Source: Acidobacteriota bacterium (GTDB taxonomy: Bacteria; Acidobacteriota; Aminicenantia; JBFLYD01). Taken from it: a stretch of DNA of 54,468 bases. How positions within the stretch are numbered: position 1 is the first letter of the stretch; each line of letters starts with the position of its first letter. Of the stretch, positions 39,792 through 47,668 are shown piece by piece. The translations under genes and the position numbers were made by a program. The notes beneath the pieces are model-generated. The model made no database searches. It worked only from the letters and a program-made list of their open reading frames with translations, and was not told the origin of the DNA. The stretch spans positions 1 to 54,468 of the forward strand of contig JBFLYD010000056.1 in assembly GCA_040756905.1 (NCBI GenBank), read 5' to 3'.

Positions 39792-41306
39792 ATGCCTATT
39801 AAAATGAAAAGACTGAAAATAGTAATAGGTGCTATATTCTTATTTATCATTTCCTGCCGTCAAAGCATAAAAAATGAAGTTGTAGAATCAGCAAGGTCAT
39901 TTCCCATAACCCTTAATCCAATTCTTGCTACAGACGAAATATCTGCAGGAATTGTGGATAAAATATTCAGTGGGTTGTTCAGGTTCGACAGAAAGGGTTT
40001 TCCAGAAATGGACTTAGCTTCCTCTTACAAACTCAATGAAAATGAATTATCAATCAACCTTAAAGAAAACATTCTCTGGCACGATGGAAAACCATTTTCA
40101 TCAGAAGATGTAATTTTTACATTTAATCTAATGAAAGACCCTGATTCTCCATTTCCATATAAGTCTGACATTGAATTTATAGACAGAATTGAACAAATAA
40201 ATAAAAACACTCTGAAGATAACTTTTAAAAATAAATTTGCACCCTATCTCACATATCTTACTTTTAAAATTCTTCCTTCCCATATCCTTAGAAAAATAAA
40301 TTCCATCGAAAAATTCGGAGAAAATCCCATCGGCACAGGTCCATATAAGTTTGAAAAGATAATTCCAGAGAATAAAATTGTATTAAGTTCTTTTTCAAAA
40401 TATTTTGGGGGTGAACCAAATATAAAAAAATACACACTCGTATTGAATACAGACTCTCTCCTAACTCCACTCAAGTTACTCAACGAAGAGATTAATTTGG
40501 GAGAAATTGAACCAGAAGTTGCTCTCTCAATTATGAACAAAACTGAATTTTTTAAAAAAATTAATTTTAATTTCTACAAAAAAAATTCTTACACATATCT
40601 TGTTTTTAATCTGGAAAAACACCCTTTGAATTTAAGAGAAATCAGAATGGCAATCGTAAAATCAATTAATCGGGATTCTCTTTTAAAAAATATTCTGAGG
40701 AATTATGGAGAGATTCCTTATTCCCATATAATCTTAAAAGACTGGAAAAATAAAAATTTAAAAAGATACAAATTTGACCCGATTAATTCAAAAAAAGAAA
40801 TCGAAAAATATGGAAAAGAAATTAAATTAACTCTTTTAACAAATTCAGAAAGCTTATTGAGAAAAAATGTATCAACTTCGATTGCAAAATGCCTGGAAGA
40901 TATTGGAATTATTGTAAAACTTGAATTTATTGAATATCGAACATTCCTTCAAAAGTTAAAAAAAGGCAACTTCGATATGGCAATCTCCTCAGTTCTCTTC
41001 GATCTTGATCCAAACATTTCCGATGTATTTCATTCAGAAGGAGTTATGAATTATTCATCTTTTAAAAGCAGAGAGCTCGATAAACTCTTGATCATGGGAA
41101 AATTTACAATTGAATTAAGTCAGAGAAAAAAAATATATGATAAAGTTCAGGAAATACTCTGGGATGAGATGCCAATCTTTCCTCTTTTTTCTCCATTCTA
41201 CATTATGGGAAGTAGTAAAAAATTGGATTTAAAAATAACCCCGGAAATTATTGGTTCAACAAACTCTTTTTCTTCATTTCTAAATTTCTGGGAGATAAAA
41301 AATTAA
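39792..41306 (+). CDS. ABC transporter solute-binding lipoprotein, family 5
   Basis: 504 aa. A lipoprotein signal (lipobox FIISC, about residue 22) is followed by an SBP_bac_5 domain (PF00496). Signatures are the start NPILATDEISAGIVDKIFSG, LKENILWHDGKPFSSEDVIF and IGTGPYKFEKI. It captures peptides or similar solutes in the periplasm. No permease or ATPase genes are adjacent. An ATG at 39804 is an alternative start. The last codons lie in the left member of a 50-bp direct repeat. Confidence 0.86.
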   Translation: MPIKMKRLKIVIGAIFLFIISCRQSIKNEVVESARSFPITLNPILATDEISAGIVDKIFSGLFRFDRKGFPEMDLASSYKLNENELSINLKENILWHDGKPFSSEDVIFTFNLMKDPDSPFPYKSDIEFIDRIEQINKNTLKITFKNKFAPYLTYLTFKILPSHILRKINSIEKFGENPIGTGPYKFEKIIPENKIVLSSFSKYFGGEPNIKKYTLVLNTDSLLTPLKLLNEEINLGEIEPEVALSIMNKTEFFKKINFNFYKKNSYTYLVFNLEKHPLNLREIRMAIVKSINRDSLLKNILRNYGEIPYSHIILKDWKNKNLKRYKFDPINSKKEIEKYGKEIKLTLLTNSESLLRKNVSTSIAKCLEDIGIIVKLEFIEYRTFLQKLKKGNFDMAISSVLFDLDPNISDVFHSEGVMNYSSFKSRELDKLLIMGKFTIELSQRKKIYDKVQEILWDEMPIFPLFSPFYIMGSSKKLDLKITPEIIGSTNSFSSFLNFWEIKN

Positions 41307-41308
41307 TA
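41259..41308 (+). repeat. 50-bp direct repeat, left copy
   Basis: Identical to 42864-42913. It covers the last codons and stop of the binding-protein gene, so this copy is likely the native one. Confidence 0.9.
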
Positions 41309-42863: not shown

Positions 42864-42913
42864 ACAAACTCTTTTTCTTCATTTCTAAATTTCTGGGAGA
42901 TAAAAAATTAATA
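42864..42913 (+). repeat. 50-bp direct repeat, right copy
   Basis: An exact copy of 41259-41308, offset by 1605 bp. Between the copies lie the aminotransferase gene and the truncated zinc-ribbon start. After the repeat the sequences remain weakly similar for about 30 bp. Confidence 0.9.
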
Positions 42914-42961
42914 GTGCTAATTTTACTTTTAAGCTTTTTCTGTCACGATGTTAAAAATTAC

Positions 42962-42990
42962 TTGAATTTTAATTTAATAATTATTAATAT
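42962..42990 (+). promoter_or_regulatory. Sigma-70 promoter of the sigma-54 activator gene
   Basis: TTGAAT (42962-42967), 17 bp, TAATAT (42985-42990). The start codon follows after about 27 bases, with GGAGGTGAGG between. Confidence 0.55.
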
Positions 42991-43017
42991 ACTAAAAAGG
43001 TAAATTGGAGGTGAGGG

Positions 43018-43992
43018 GTGAGTAAGGAAAAAGAAATATTTAAATCCAAAGAAAAAATAAAATCAGCAGAATACACATTTGAAGATATCGTTGGATATGA
43101 TGATATAAAGGCGAAAGCTCAATTTCTCTCAAAAGCGGATGTAGATATTCTCCTCCAGGGTGAAACAGGTGTAGGAAAAGAAATGTTTGCAGAAGCAATT
43201 CACAATGAAAGTAAAAGGAAAGAGAAAAGATTTGTAGTAGTTGACTGTACATCAATTCCAGAGAAACTATTCGAATCAGAACTCTTCGGACATAAAAAAG
43301 GCTCATTCACAGATGCTCATGAAGATAAAGAAGGAAAAATTGAATATGCAGATGGAGGAACTATATTTTTAGATGAAATCTCTGAACTTCCTTTAGAATC
43401 CCAGGCAAAACTTCTAAGAGTTCTGGAGACAAAGAGATTCTCAAGAGTTGGAGAAAATAAAGAAAGAAAATTCAATGGGAGGTTTATTCTCTCAACAAAC
43501 AAAAACTTAGATAAATTAAGAAAAGAAGGAAAATTCAGAGAAGACCTTCTCTTCCGAATAAACTCCTTCTTTTTTTATATACCTCCCCTAAGGGAGAAGA
43601 AAAAAGAGATTCCTAAAATAGTAGATTACTACTGGATGAAATTAAATGAAGAGAGAAATACAACCATTGATCCACCCTCCAAACATGAAGTATCTCAAAT
43701 CTTAAAATACAACTTCCCAGGAAATGTAAGAGAACTTAAAAATTTCTTAAGCAGAGTCCATTTATATTCTTCATTAGAAAAAAATTACAAAAAAAGAAAA
43801 GAGATTCTTCAAAAAGAGATAAAGATTCTTCTCAGAGAAGAGAAAATAAAATCCTTAGATGAAATAATAGAGGAACATATTCGATATGTCCTTAATAGAA
43901 CAAATAGTATCAGAGAAGCAGCAAGGGTTCTTGGGATAAGCAGGATGACCCTTTATAGAAAAATAAAGAGATTTCACATAGATATCCTCTAA
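43018..43992 (+). CDS. Sigma-54-dependent transcription activator without sensor domain
   Basis: 324 aa, GTG start with GGAGGTGAGG upstream. Only about 20 residues precede the AAA+ domain, as in PspF, so activity must be controlled by a separate protein or by its level. Walker A is GETGVGKE (48-55) and Walker B GGTIFLDE (113-120). The sigma-54-contacting loop reads GSFTDA (95-100) in place of GAFTGA. The C-terminus has a Fis-type helix-turn-helix (SIREAARVLGISRMTLYRKI, about 296-315). A sigma-54 promoter with three upstream palindromes follows directly, the probable target. Confidence 0.92.
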   Translation: MSKEKEIFKSKEKIKSAEYTFEDIVGYDDIKAKAQFLSKADVDILLQGETGVGKEMFAEAIHNESKRKEKRFVVVDCTSIPEKLFESELFGHKKGSFTDAHEDKEGKIEYADGGTIFLDEISELPLESQAKLLRVLETKRFSRVGENKERKFNGRFILSTNKNLDKLRKEGKFREDLLFRINSFFFYIPPLREKKKEIPKIVDYYWMKLNEERNTTIDPPSKHEVSQILKYNFPGNVRELKNFLSRVHLYSSLEKNYKKRKEILQKEIKILLREEKIKSLDEIIEEHIRYVLNRTNSIREAARVLGISRMTLYRKIKRFHIDIL

Positions 43993-44026
43993 TATTTTAT
44001 AGAATAAATAAAAACATTTAAAAATA

Positions 44027-44043
44027 TGTAACATTTTGTTAAT
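44027..44043. promoter_or_regulatory. Enhancer-like palindrome 1
   Basis: TGTAACA-TTT-TGTTAAT, five of seven arm positions being complementary (5+5). It is 71 bp before the second site and about 210 bp before the -24 element, a usual enhancer distance for sigma-54 activators. Confidence 0.6.
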
Positions 44044-44097
44044 TTAATTGCTCTAAAGAACCTTTTAAATAAAGGATTTAAACTTAATATAAATAAG

Positions 44098-44114
44098 TGT
44101 CACATTTTGTTACA
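44098..44114. promoter_or_regulatory. Enhancer-like palindrome 2
   Basis: TGTCACA-TTT-TGTTACA, the best of the three sites: six of seven positions are complementary. Candidate binding site of the Fis-type domain of the neighbouring activator. Confidence 0.65.
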
Positions 44115-44167
44115 AATTTCCAGCTAAGAAGGCTCGTGAATAAAAGATTTATTATCTTCTCAAAATA

Positions 44168-44184
44168 TGTATTAAAATGTTACA
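44168..44184. promoter_or_regulatory. Enhancer-like palindrome 3
   Basis: TGTATTA-AAA-TGTTACA. The right arm equals that of site 2, the left is degenerate. It is 70 bp after site 2, so the three sites are nearly equally spaced. Confidence 0.5.
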
Positions 44185-44235
44185 ATTTTCGATTTTTAAA
44201 AAATTCTAAGTTATTGATAAATCTAACAAATCAAT

Positions 44236-44252
44236 TTGGCATATAATTTGCT
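44236..44252 (+). promoter_or_regulatory. Sigma-54 (-24/-12) promoter
   Basis: TTGGCATATAATTTGCT has GG (44238-44239) and GC (44250-44251) separated by exactly 10 bases, matching TGGCA(C/T)-N5-TTGCW. Transcription would start near 44263, just before the ribosome binding site of the first small ORF. Its position next to a sigma-54 activator gene supports it strongly. Confidence 0.85.
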
Positions 44253-44272
44253 TATTTTTAATTGAGGAAAAA

Positions 44273-44428
44273 ATGATTATATTAATTGAGGAAGTAAATA
44301 AATTGTTTGAATCACAAATACCATGTGATTGTCTTTATCGTTCTTGCTCATACTCCATTCAAGAAACATATTTTACAGATGTTTTGGCTCAAGTCATGAA
44401 TTTATATTTGGATCTTTATCTAAAATGA
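44273..44428 (+). CDS. Small 51-aa protein, first gene of the sigma-54 operon
   Basis: 51 codons from an ATG preceded by GAGGAAAAA and only about 10 bases after the predicted transcription start. The product has a CDCLYRSC cluster (Cys18, 20, 25) and no signal peptide. Its stop overlaps the next start as ATGA, a sign of translational coupling. It is not recognised. It could be a leader peptide or a small partner of the activator. Confidence 0.5.
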   Translation: MIILIEEVNKLFESQIPCDCLYRSCSYSIQETYFTDVLAQVMNLYLDLYLK

Positions 44429-44571
44429 AGAAAAAAATTGTATATTTTCTTTTATGGCTGTGTTTTACATTTCTTTTAATAGATATTTATTTACTCATTC
44501 AGAAAATAAATATCGAAAAAAAAATTGAACAACTTCAAATAACAATTAAAAATAGAATTTCGGGTGATTAA
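44425..44571 (+). CDS. Small 48-aa single-pass membrane protein
   Basis: MKKKIVYFLLWLCFTFLLID begins a membrane helix (about 5-25) followed by a short charged coiled-coil-like tail (KINIEKKIEQLQITI). A longer frame from an alternative start upstream would include the previous ORF's region and is not preferred. It lies between the 51-aa ORF (4-nt overlap) and the redoxin (6 nt), thus within the operon. Function unknown. Confidence 0.55.
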   Translation: MKKKIVYFLLWLCFTFLLIDIYLLIQKINIEKKIEQLQITIKNRISGD

Positions 44572-44577
44572 TCTGCT

Positions 44578-45192
44578 ATGGATAAACAAAGTATTAAAAT
44601 ATTAATATTAATCACATTTTGCTTTATTTTAGTTTTATGGGGAATTTCACTTCATAAAACAAATAAGTCAAATTCAAAAACCTTGGAAGAAAATATTCAA
44701 TATTTAAAGCTTTTAAAAGACCCAACATTAAATCCCGATGGAACCTCTCTTATAGGAACTCCATTCTTTAATTTTAGTTTGAAAGATTTAAATGGAAAAT
44801 ATTATCAATTAGCTTCCATTCAATCTTTATTAAAAATGATAATTTTTTTTGACGTAAATGATTGTGGCTTATGTCTAAATGAGTATCGACTGTGGAAAAA
44901 ATTGTATGAAACTTATCCCTCCAATAAATTAACGATATTTGCAATATGTACCACAAGAGAGAAACAATCTATAATAAATTTTATTGAGGATAGAAGAATA
45001 AAATTTCCAGTAATCTGGGATCCCGAAAGAAAAGTTAAAACCCATATGAAATTCCGTCAATCTCCTTTACGAATTCTTTTGGATCAAAATAATAGTATTA
45101 TTGACATTGAATATACTCTAACTACAACTGAACATCAGCAATATATCACTTCCATGATAGAGTCATTAATTATGAAAACTAAAAATAAATAA
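44578..45192 (+). CDS. Membrane-anchored thioredoxin-like (redoxin) protein
   Basis: 204 aa. One N-terminal membrane helix (about 7-24) places the domain in the periplasm. The segment GTPFFNFSLKDLNGKYY begins an AhpC/TSA-Redoxin domain, and the active site is CGLC (96-99) in FFDVNDCGLC. The rest follows the fold (FPVIWDPERKV, then the cis-Pro-like SPLRILLDQN). It is likely a TlpA/ResA-type thiol-disulphide enzyme. It precedes the Cys-rich exported peptide gene and shares the cluster with a MauE-like protein, as MauD does with MauE. Confidence 0.83.
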   Translation: MDKQSIKILILITFCFILVLWGISLHKTNKSNSKTLEENIQYLKLLKDPTLNPDGTSLIGTPFFNFSLKDLNGKYYQLASIQSLLKMIIFFDVNDCGLCLNEYRLWKKLYETYPSNKLTIFAICTTREKQSIINFIEDRRIKFPVIWDPERKVKTHMKFRQSPLRILLDQNNSIIDIEYTLTTTEHQQYITSMIESLIMKTKNK

Positions 45193-45242
45193 ATGATATT
45201 AGTAACATTTTTTAATTAATTAAATCAAAAAAGGAGGTCGAT

Positions 45243-45515
45243 ATGAAAAACCTGCTAAAGCGGCGAACAGTTCTTGTAACAACAACAGTTTTATTGTCAT
45301 TTTGCTTTCTCCTCGTATTTTCCTCTTATTACTCCAAACTTTTTGCAAATGTTACTATTTTAGGTGATTGTTGTCCACAATGTACTAACTACTGTGAGTG
45401 TGATGCTAGTTGTAGTGGAAGTTGCGTTGCAGAAGAGTATTGTGGTCAAGGCCTTCCCCTTTGCAGAGGTACAGGCACGAAATGTTGCATGTGCTATGAA
45501 GTTCCTATTTATTAA
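45243..45515 (+). CDS. Exported Cys-rich peptide (12 cysteines in the mature part)
   Basis: 90 aa with a very good AAAAAGGAGG ribosome binding site. Residues 9-28 form a signal or membrane segment after a basic start. The rest, about 43-84, carries Cys at 43, 44, 47, 51, 53, 57, 61, 67, 74, 81, 82 and 84 in a Gly/Ser/Pro-rich frame, so it must be folded by disulphides or bind metals. No family is recognised. The setting resembles the small NVEALA-type peptides of Bacteroidota, which also lie beside 6-bladed beta-propeller genes; this is an analogy. Confidence 0.75.
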   Translation: MKNLLKRRTVLVTTTVLLSFCFLLVFSSYYSKLFANVTILGDCCPQCTNYCECDASCSGSCVAEEYCGQGLPLCRGTGTKCCMCYEVPIY

Positions 45516-45586
45516 TTAGAAAAAGAAGTAGAGCATTATTTATTGTGTTTGATATCTAAAAAGGAAGAGGTATAATTTATATAAAA

Positions 45587-46702
45587 ATGATTATTAGAAA
45601 ATTTAAATTTATATCATTTATTCAGATAGTCTGTGTTTTTCTCTCTTTTGTTATTATAATTTATTGTTCAAAAGAGAAAACCAAGTATGTTCTTAATGAA
45701 AAGCCAATCTGGGAAAACAAAGTAGATGTTATCATTCATAAGATCCTTACTATTGGAACTGATGATTTTGGCAATCCAGAGTATTTATTTGGATTTATTT
45801 CAGATATCGCAATTGATAAGGAAAATAATGTATTTATCTTGGATCATGTGAATTTCAAAGTATCCAAGTATAATTCAAATGGTGTGTTTATAAAAAATTA
45901 TGGCTATGGAAAAGGACAGGGACCAGGCGAATTTGGAAGCCCGGCTAATCTATGTGTTGATAATCGTGGAAATGTCTATGTAAGTGATTCCTCTTATAGG
46001 AGAATCTCAATATTTGATCCAATGAATATATTTATTAAGTCATTTAGAACAGAAAAAAATACAATACCATTAAATGACATTGCTGTTTTCAAAAACTCAA
46101 TTTTATTTGTCGGAATATCACAATTAAATTTTTGGAATAAAGAGCTTGATGGAATTTTCCAAATGTATTCCCTTCCAGAGGGAAATTATGTTGGCTCTAT
46201 GGGTCGATCAGATTGGTTAAAAAAAAATTGGAGAATTCTTACGGGCGCAGATACCATTTGTATAAACAAAAAAAATGATGGAATAGTAATCTCTCATGCA
46301 TCTCCTTATGAAATTGAAGTTTTTTCAAAAGATAGCCGTTTATTAAGAAGATTTGGAAGAAAAACTGAATTTTTTCACAAAGTTTTAAGTGATCCTAATA
46401 ATAAAAAATCCCCGCTTTCGCTGTCAGAGGGGGGTAGTTTATGTATGACTTGTCTACCCGATGGTAAAATTGTAAACGTTATCCGGCATACGTATCCCTC
46501 TTTAGATATTGAGAGATTTTTTGACATTTTTGATATGCATGGAAATTACTTGATCACTATTCCAGAAAAGAAGTTTGGTGTTCAAGGAAAATATAATTTA
46601 AAAATTGAATCAGATAGTAAGGGATATATATGGTTAAATTTCGTAGAACCTTATCCCCACATTGCCAAGTTTAAAATTGAATTTAGAGAAAAAAAGTCTT
46701 AG
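45587..46702 (+). CDS. 6-bladed beta-propeller lipoprotein
   Basis: 371 aa. A signal peptide with a lipobox IIIYC (about residue 27) anchors it. NHL-like blades follow: SDIAIDKENNVFILDHVNFK, KNYGYGKGQGPGEFGSP, LCVDNRGNVYVSDSSYRRIS. The GKGQGPGEF motif is characteristic of 6-bladed propellers in this group. Such proteins are likely binding platforms rather than enzymes. It is 71 bp behind the Cys-rich peptide gene and may bind that product. Confidence 0.82.
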   Translation: MIIRKFKFISFIQIVCVFLSFVIIIYCSKEKTKYVLNEKPIWENKVDVIIHKILTIGTDDFGNPEYLFGFISDIAIDKENNVFILDHVNFKVSKYNSNGVFIKNYGYGKGQGPGEFGSPANLCVDNRGNVYVSDSSYRRISIFDPMNIFIKSFRTEKNTIPLNDIAVFKNSILFVGISQLNFWNKELDGIFQMYSLPEGNYVGSMGRSDWLKKNWRILTGADTICINKKNDGIVISHASPYEIEVFSKDSRLLRRFGRKTEFFHKVLSDPNNKKSPLSLSEGGSLCMTCLPDGKIVNVIRHTYPSLDIERFFDIFDMHGNYLITIPEKKFGVQGKYNLKIESDSKGYIWLNFVEPYPHIAKFKIEFREKKS

Positions 46703-46796
46703 CTTCAAGAGTTACTAAAATCAAATTTTTTTAAAGGAAAATTAATTGATTGAACACAAAAATAATAAGACCCATAAACGAAATAATAAGGAATAA

Positions 46797-47255
46797 ATGA
46801 AAGGATGGAAAGGTATAATAATAAAATCTTTGATTATAATAACATTTAGCACATTTATTGGTTTTCTCTTTAATCTTTTAACCAATGATAGCCTCTTTAT
46901 CCTTTCTACTAAAAGCCCATCCTACAGAGAAATAAGCCTCTCTCTGGCAAAGGAAAGGTTTGATAAAGGTGCTCATTTATTTTTAGATGCAAGAGAAGAG
47001 AGTCTCTACAGAATAGGTCATATAAAAGGCTCAGTAAATCTTCCTCTAGGAAACTTTAACCAAATGATAGAAGAGTTTGAGAGAGAATACCCAAAGGGTA
47101 AAAAAATCATTGTATACTGTGGTGGCTCTCATTGCTCATCAAGCTACACTTTGGCAAAAAAGCTAATGGAGAGAGGATACAGAGAGATAGAGGTTTTTTT
47201 CGGAGGATGGAATGATTGGATAAAATCTTCCTTCCCTTCTGAGAGAAGTAGATGA
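46797..47255 (+). CDS. Membrane-anchored rhodanese-like protein
   Basis: 152 aa. An N-terminal helix (about 8-28) is followed by a rhodanese domain (about 42-150): LFLDAREESLYRIGHIKGSV, then VYCGGSHCSSS with the active-site Cys108 and a second Cys113, and the closing FFGGWNDW. It could handle sulphane sulphur or persulphides at the membrane. It overlaps the MauE-like gene by 4 nt (ATGA). Confidence 0.87.
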   Translation: MKGWKGIIIKSLIIITFSTFIGFLFNLLTNDSLFILSTKSPSYREISLSLAKERFDKGAHLFLDAREESLYRIGHIKGSVNLPLGNFNQMIEEFEREYPKGKKIIVYCGGSHCSSSYTLAKKLMERGYREIEVFFGGWNDWIKSSFPSERSR

Positions 47256-47668
47256 AAATCTCAAATAAGTACATTCTTACAGGAATTAGATTGTTATTGG
47301 GTGGACTTTTTCTCTATGCAGGACTTTTTAAGATAAATCATCAAGAGGAATTTTTATCAGCGATTATAAATTATGGGATAATATCCAATCATCAATTCAT
47401 GATAAATCTTCTCTCAATTATACTTCCCTGGATAGAGATAACATCAGGAGTTTTTCTTTTAGCTGGGATATGGAAAAAAAGTAATGCATTGATCGTTTTT
47501 GTGCTTCTTTTAATTTTCTCTTCTGCAGTGCTTATGGCTATAAAAAAAGGACTTAGTGTAGATTGTGGATGTTTTGGTTTTGGAGTTAAAGTAGGCTGGG
47601 GTGTGTTTTTAAGAAACATCCTCTTACTATTCCTTTCATTTGAAATTCTTATAAATGAGAGTGTATGA
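47252..47668 (+). CDS. MauE/DoxX-like redox membrane protein
   Basis: 138 aa with four membrane helices. LLGGLFLYAGLFKINHQEEF is the DoxX-type start, and the cysteine motif VDCGCFGFG matches MauE (PF07291). MauE helps disulphide formation in the six-disulphide small subunit of methylamine dehydrogenase. Here it probably passes electrons between the membrane and the redoxin at 44578 or the rhodanese. It ends the cluster, facing purA. Confidence 0.85.
   Translation: MKISNKYILTGIRLLLGGLFLYAGLFKINHQEEFLSAIINYGIISNHQFMINLLSIILPWIEITSGVFLLAGIWKKSNALIVFVLLLIFSSAVLMAIKKGLSVDCGCFGFGVKVGWGVFLRNILLLFLSFEILINESV

Follow-up and report, generated by a model that had tools for sequence, protein, structure and literature searches.

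A predicted sigma-54-controlled cassette of redoxin, exported cysteine-rich peptide and six-bladed propeller in an Aminicenantia genome

The window, i.e. the whole stretch of DNA analysed here, is the 54,468-nucleotide contig JBFLYD010000056.1 (contig C56; other contigs of the same genome are numbered likewise) of a 2.56-Mb genome from the class Aminicenantia (Candidatus Aminicenantes). On its forward strand, to which all genes and sites listed for the cassette region belong, it carries a cassette of genes for a small membrane protein, a redoxin, an exported peptide with 12 cysteines in its mature part and a six-bladed propeller, preceded by a sigma-54 activator gene and followed by genes for a rhodanese and a MauE-family protein. 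A preliminary description of the region, made from the sequence without database searches, had proposed a sigma-54-controlled pathway that exports and oxidises this peptide, and all parts that it named are present: the open reading frames (ORFs), the promoter and the three palindromes.

Genes and regulatory region of the cassette

The peptide gene (45243..45515) encodes 90 amino acids with 13 cysteines in total, 12 of them within residues 43-84. The N-terminus has a basic start, a hydrophobic core and a plausible cleavage site (LFA/N): both a hydropathy-based detector and reading of the sequence recognise a Sec-type signal followed by a cysteine-rich part. The precursor is likely cleaved after LFA, and the mature peptide has 12 cysteines in about 55 residues. 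It matches no family in Pfam or NCBIfam, a profile search of the PDB with the peptide gave no meaningful match, and a single-sequence search in 100 relatives (of the same class or more distant) returned only noise. A profile built from cassette redoxins led to a homologous locus in UBA8522, which represents another Aminicenantia family (locus L118, also DQHV01000308.1). There, two tandem cysteine-rich peptides each align with the window peptide at all 12 mature cysteines, with an identity of 30-34%; the redoxins are 49% and the propellers 44% identical, and the gene order is the same in both places: small membrane protein, redoxin, peptide, propeller. A peptide profile run over 142 genomes of the class found matches in UBA8522 and the window only. 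Because the gene has a strong, suitably spaced Shine-Dalgarno sequence (GGAGG, 45233-45237) and a homologue pair that keeps every mature cysteine, it is not a chance ORF.

Upstream of the peptide lies a membrane-anchored, ResA-like redoxin with the active-site motif CGLC (44578..45192; Pfam AhpC-TSA). Its AlphaFold2 model has a predicted local distance difference test score (pLDDT) of 93.5 and its best PDB match is ResA (template modelling score 0.88, normalised to the target); model, PDB search and alignment together identify a thioredoxin fold, the CxxC motif and an N-terminal membrane anchor. In an alignment of 14 cassette redoxins the CxxC is invariant, and most have a glutamate three residues past the second cysteine, which we take to be the position of the functional glutamate of ResA. 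The propeller gene (45587..46702) starts 71 bp downstream of the peptide and encodes a predicted exported protein of the NHL/DUF5128 type (NHL 2e-6, DUF5128 3e-5); its model (pLDDT 90, predicted template modelling score 0.88) finds NHL six-bladed domains in the PDB. The preliminary description had called it a propeller lipoprotein. Six blades are indeed predicted; the lipoprotein assignment is not upheld, as the window propeller lacks a canonical lipobox, which is found in 3 of 21 cassette propellers.

Two tiny ORFs precede the redoxin. The second (44425..44571, 48 amino acids) encodes a conserved small membrane protein with a coiled tail, and homologues lie directly 5' of the redoxin in UBA8522 (L118:1420-1644) and on contig C19 (L041:8278-8421). 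The first (44273..44428, 51 amino acids), whose stop overlaps the start of the second, is a doubtful gene or a leader; with no homologue among the cassettes searched, it was rejected as a conserved gene.

The activator gene (43018..43992) encodes an AAA+ domain (PF00158, 3e-62) and a Fis-type helix-turn-helix (HTH_8, 2e-9). Only about 30 residues precede the AAA+ domain, so the protein has no sensor domain, as had been described. Downstream of it are three imperfect palindromes with the shared consensus TGTAACATTTTGTTACA and a spacing of 70-71 bp, the predicted upstream activator sites: TGTAACATTTTGTTAAT (44027..44043, two mismatches to TGTAACA-N3-TGTTACA), TGTCACATTTTGTTACA (44098..44114, the top match genome-wide) and TGTATTAAAATGTTACA (44168..44184, two mismatches, in 70-71 bp phasing with the other two). 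The predicted -24/-12 promoter, TGGCATATAATTTGCT (44237..44252), is perfect, in agreement with the preliminary description, and is the sole exact match in the window (one observed in 54 kb, 0.03 expected). With a -24/-12 site, upstream activator sites and RpoN encoded in the same genome, all hallmarks of a sigma-54 operon are present and support the predicted sigma-54 control of the cassette.

In the whole genome, palindromes with at most two mismatches occur only at these three positions and once before the cassette on contig C48. The C48 cassette has a three-site, 70-bp array and a near-consensus sigma-54 site upstream, its promoter DNA is homologous to that of the window over about 300 bp, and no activator gene lies nearby. 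Since the phased palindromes recur before C48, the activator of the window probably serves both cassettes. Before the activator gene, positions 42866-42914 (caaactctttttcttcatttctaaatttctgggagataaaaaattaata) are by eye a near letter-for-letter copy of the end of the upstream solute-binding-protein gene (about 41255-41307), which suggests a local duplication.

Sister cassettes and their regulators

By sequence, the genome has about nine sister cassettes, and there are more in relatives. Redoxin and propeller genes are neighbours on C17, C19, C31, C48, C51, C57, C64 and in the window, and C61 has a propeller with two peptides. To count peptides, a detector was used that accepts ORFs of 45-115 amino acids with a basic start and a hydrophobic stretch followed by at least five cysteines, outside larger ORFs. 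It was applied to 340 kb of own-genome loci, 164 kb of relatives' loci from several Aminicenantia families and, as a control, 400 kb of the own genome without propellers; it was designed and tuned after the cassettes and the relatives' loci had been read, and only the control was drawn afterwards. It found 10 peptides in own-genome loci and 13 in relatives' loci, all 23 at most 914 bp from a propeller on the same strand, and none in the control. In a second census with the threshold lowered to four cysteines, an exported peptide on the same strand stood beside 13 of 15 propeller-adjacent redoxins and beside none of 17 others (Fisher 3e-7); a fourteenth propeller-adjacent redoxin with a peptide (L121) was recognised by eye. 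The recurrence of cysteine-rich ORFs beside redoxin-propeller pairs, together with the UBA8522 gene order, is what the preliminary description had suggested to look for in related genomes, and its core of redoxin, peptide and propeller stands.

A strong Shine-Dalgarno sequence precedes nearly all cassette peptides. The peptides themselves form unrelated-looking groups that differ in cysteine spacing, many having only 4-8 widely spaced cysteines and many aromatic residues, and none matches a family in Pfam or NCBIfam. The propeller alignment proved too diverse for a contig scan, and a narrower one yielded three loci. A phylum-wide search with the redoxin profile revealed no cassette in the three out-of-class matches that were read.

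Exact sigma-54 sites precede the cassettes of the window, C57, C64 and G089, and sites with one mismatch those of C48 and C17; the control rate is two exact sites in 400 kb, counting both strands. At the cassettes of UBA8522, C61 and C51, AraC-type regulators are encoded (L118:632-1327, L080:13521-14249 and L081:8501-9778). Their N-terminal parts are poorly conserved apart from a C-x3-C-x4-C motif, which is invariant in all three and may sense redox state or a metal. The regulator thus appears exchangeable while the cassette stays, because AraC-type genes take its place at other cassettes. The C64 cassette (L079 1435-4364) carries mobile elements: a Y1/IS200-like ORF separates the peptide gene from the propeller gene, and the C-terminal remnant of a sigma-54 activator gene lies beside an IS3-type transposase.

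Further propellers of this family are encoded beside radical SAM/SPASM genes or fragments, on C20 (L083 904-6001), C58 (L082 6610-9655), C37 (L087 5615-8312), C69 (L074 4220-7520) and C49 (L086 6336-10382). The first three loci have short leaderless peptides with cysteine motifs; the C20 peptide weakly matches the CA_C0660 sactipeptide family (E 0.001), and an ABC exporter gene follows at that locus. These loci look like clusters for ribosomally synthesised and post-translationally modified peptides (RiPPs) that use the same propeller.

Neighbouring genes and known systems

Downstream of the cassette, after a gap of 94 bp and on the same strand, lie a membrane-anchored rhodanese (46797..47255, Pfam 3e-19), probably not a core part, and a MauE-family membrane protein with the motif CGCFG (47252..47668, Pfam 6e-28), a possible accessory that also matches DoxX in Pfam. 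MauE is present in 93 of 142 class genomes searched, and in all 29 relatives' loci examined the rhodanese is directly upstream of it. In none of the 29 does a redoxin or propeller of the cassette type lie within about 1.5 kb of the pair; the tandem (window and L187-L215) often follows an aminotransferase gene. As the 29 loci carry the pair without the cassette, the rhodanese-MauE tandem is, on sequence evidence, an independent, class-wide unit, and both genes were rejected as core parts. Of the redox set that the preliminary description had assigned to the peptide, one ResA-like redoxin remains; its suggestion of sulphur or metal loading gained no positive support. The UBA8522 peptide locus has neither rhodanese nor MauE; the MauE of UBA8522 is on another contig. 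Both MauE genes of the present genome directly follow a cassette propeller (window and C57), and VKOR was not found in this genome; for these two reasons MauE may serve the cassette here, as a local functional link. The tandem may be a general membrane thiol oxidant in a genome without VKOR.

NVEALA peptides (PF14055) of Bacteroidota are short exported peptides beside DUF5128-type six-bladed propellers. The preliminary comparison with them holds for the layout, a short exported peptide adjoining a six-bladed propeller. It fails for family membership, which was rejected because neither the window peptide nor ten sister peptides match PF14055, and a search of the genome gave only chance matches below the cut-off elsewhere. 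NVEALA loci also differ in that peptide and propeller of the Aminicenantia cassettes are almost always accompanied by a ResA-like redoxin. MauD and MauE act in disulphide maturation of the small subunit of methylamine dehydrogenase, and the window resembles that system in having a periplasmic redoxin, a cysteine-dense partner and a nearby MauE. However, there is no methylamine dehydrogenase, and MauE is an inconstant neighbour that belongs to the rhodanese-MauE unit: its linkage to redoxin and cysteine-dense substrate breaks down in UBA8522, where the cassette lacks it. With the thiol oxidoreductases ResA, TlpA and CcmG the cassette redoxin shares fold, membrane anchor and CxxC, but it is encoded with small exported peptides and propellers instead of cytochrome c maturation genes; no cytochrome genes were found at the cassette.

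Bufferins or oxazolins are MNIO-modified, Sec-exported, cysteine-rich RiPPs, often with a DoxX-like gene (PMC12452194). The window peptide shares the signal peptide and the cysteine-rich mature part, but the cassette has a propeller and a redoxin where bufferins have MNIO/DUF2063 partners: neither MNIO nor DUF2063 is among the annotated neighbours of the window locus (no genome-wide search for MNIO was made). The radical SAM/SPASM clusters of the CA_C0660-like sactipeptide kind (C20, C58, C37) likewise pair a peptide with a propeller; they differ in their leaderless cysteine-motif peptides and in the radical SAM enzyme, which the window locus lacks. In the open-access literature searched, on NVEALA, DUF5128, propellers combined with TlpA or with radical SAM, and RiPPs or propellers of Aminicenantes, no description of such cassettes was found. 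A layout like that of NVEALA and propeller is already known, and there is a fair chance that the cassette merits a class of its own.

Proposed function and alternatives

The cassette itself is well supported by its recurrence, its gene order, the conserved cysteines, the predicted folds and the layout of promoter and operators, and from these we infer its function: hypervariable cysteine-rich peptides would be exported under regulatory control, would be matured at their disulphides and would have the propeller as their partner, a reading to which we give a probability of about 50%. The activator encoded at 43018 would bind the three phased palindromes and switch on the sigma-54 promoter at 44237; it would probably act in trans on the C48 cassette as well. 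The short peptide precursor would be exported by means of its Sec-type signal, the membrane-anchored, outward-facing ResA-like thiol oxidoreductase would handle its cysteines, forming or shuffling disulphides, and the exported six-bladed propeller would bind or present the finished peptide. The strong variation of the peptides between cassettes would be expected of ligands with dedicated partners, and the rhodanese-MauE unit, although separate, may supply oxidising power locally.

Several points weigh against this reading. Enzymes of the ResA type mostly act as reductants, so that the thiol chemistry may run in either direction, and the glutamate that follows the CxxC in ResA is missing from some cassette redoxins. 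Contact between propeller and peptide is suggested by gene neighbourhood only, and export and disulphide chemistry are predicted. The census is descriptive with a control and not blind, the detector having been tuned on loci already read. Lastly, the preliminary description had expected the peptide gene to stay with its neighbours: the close homologue in UBA8522 agrees, but the paralogous cassette on C19 (L041 6649-9740) has redoxin and propeller and no recognisable peptide. The redoxin and propeller of C19 are the closest own-genome paralogues of those of the window, and a transposase-like ORF lies just upstream of them.

The strongest alternative, still an unlikely one, is metal buffering: the 12-cysteine peptide would be a periplasmic chelator of Cu(I), Zn or some other metal, like a metallothionein or bufferin, the redoxin would keep its thiols reduced and the propeller would be an accessory. 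The cysteines are spaced as CC, CxC and CxxC, much as in metallothioneins, bufferins are likewise Sec-exported, cysteine-rich and accompanied by DoxX genes (PMC12452194) while MauE matches DoxX, and the AraC-type regulators at three other cassettes, including the UBA8522 homologue, have the C-x3-C-x4-C motif. However, no MNIO was seen among the adjacent genes examined and the peptides match no Pfam or NCBIfam family; with so many sister peptides having only 4-8 widely spaced cysteines and many aromatics, metallothionein was rejected as a general explanation.

Slightly less probable still is a redox sensor or thiol buffer, in which the redoxin would reduce the peptide with electrons derived from CcdA and the thiol state would report to the propeller. 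ResA being the nearest fold and its glutamate being kept in most cassette redoxins are consistent with this, as is a CcdA-like gene (identified by eye) that adjoins another redoxin, on C43; yet no CcdA is found at the cassettes, and hypervariable peptides are a poor fit to a common redox buffer. We consider it improbable that redoxin, rhodanese and MauE act together in oxidising the peptide or in loading sulphur onto it: the shared strand, the 94-bp gap and the position of both MauE copies after a cassette speak for it, but the cassette-free pairs in 29 of 29 relatives and the UBA8522 cassette without rhodanese and MauE speak against it. That the peptide ORF is spurious, as the fruitless single-sequence search of 100 relatives might suggest, is hardly credible given its Shine-Dalgarno sequence, the cysteine pattern kept in two homologues and the exported cysteine-rich ORFs that recur at sister cassettes.

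We tentatively propose that the cassettes may constitute a new family of multi-copy, individually regulated peptide systems of Aminicenantia, in which each hypervariable exported peptide would be matured by its own dedicated thiol oxidoreductase and recognised by a cognate NHL propeller, and that the propeller may be a common partner of redoxin-type and radical SAM-type peptides. Their biological purpose may be signalling, competition or a surface function. Few members of this group are in culture, and its 2.6-Mb genome studied here holds about nine variable exported-peptide cassettes, several of them preceded by sigma-54 promoters. This peptide class has probably been overlooked in annotation, as its ORFs are short and mutually dissimilar; a CxxC redoxin adjoining an NHL propeller provides a search handle for further cassettes, and the cassettes suggest what the numerous six-bladed propellers of these bacteria may do, in a form that can be tested.

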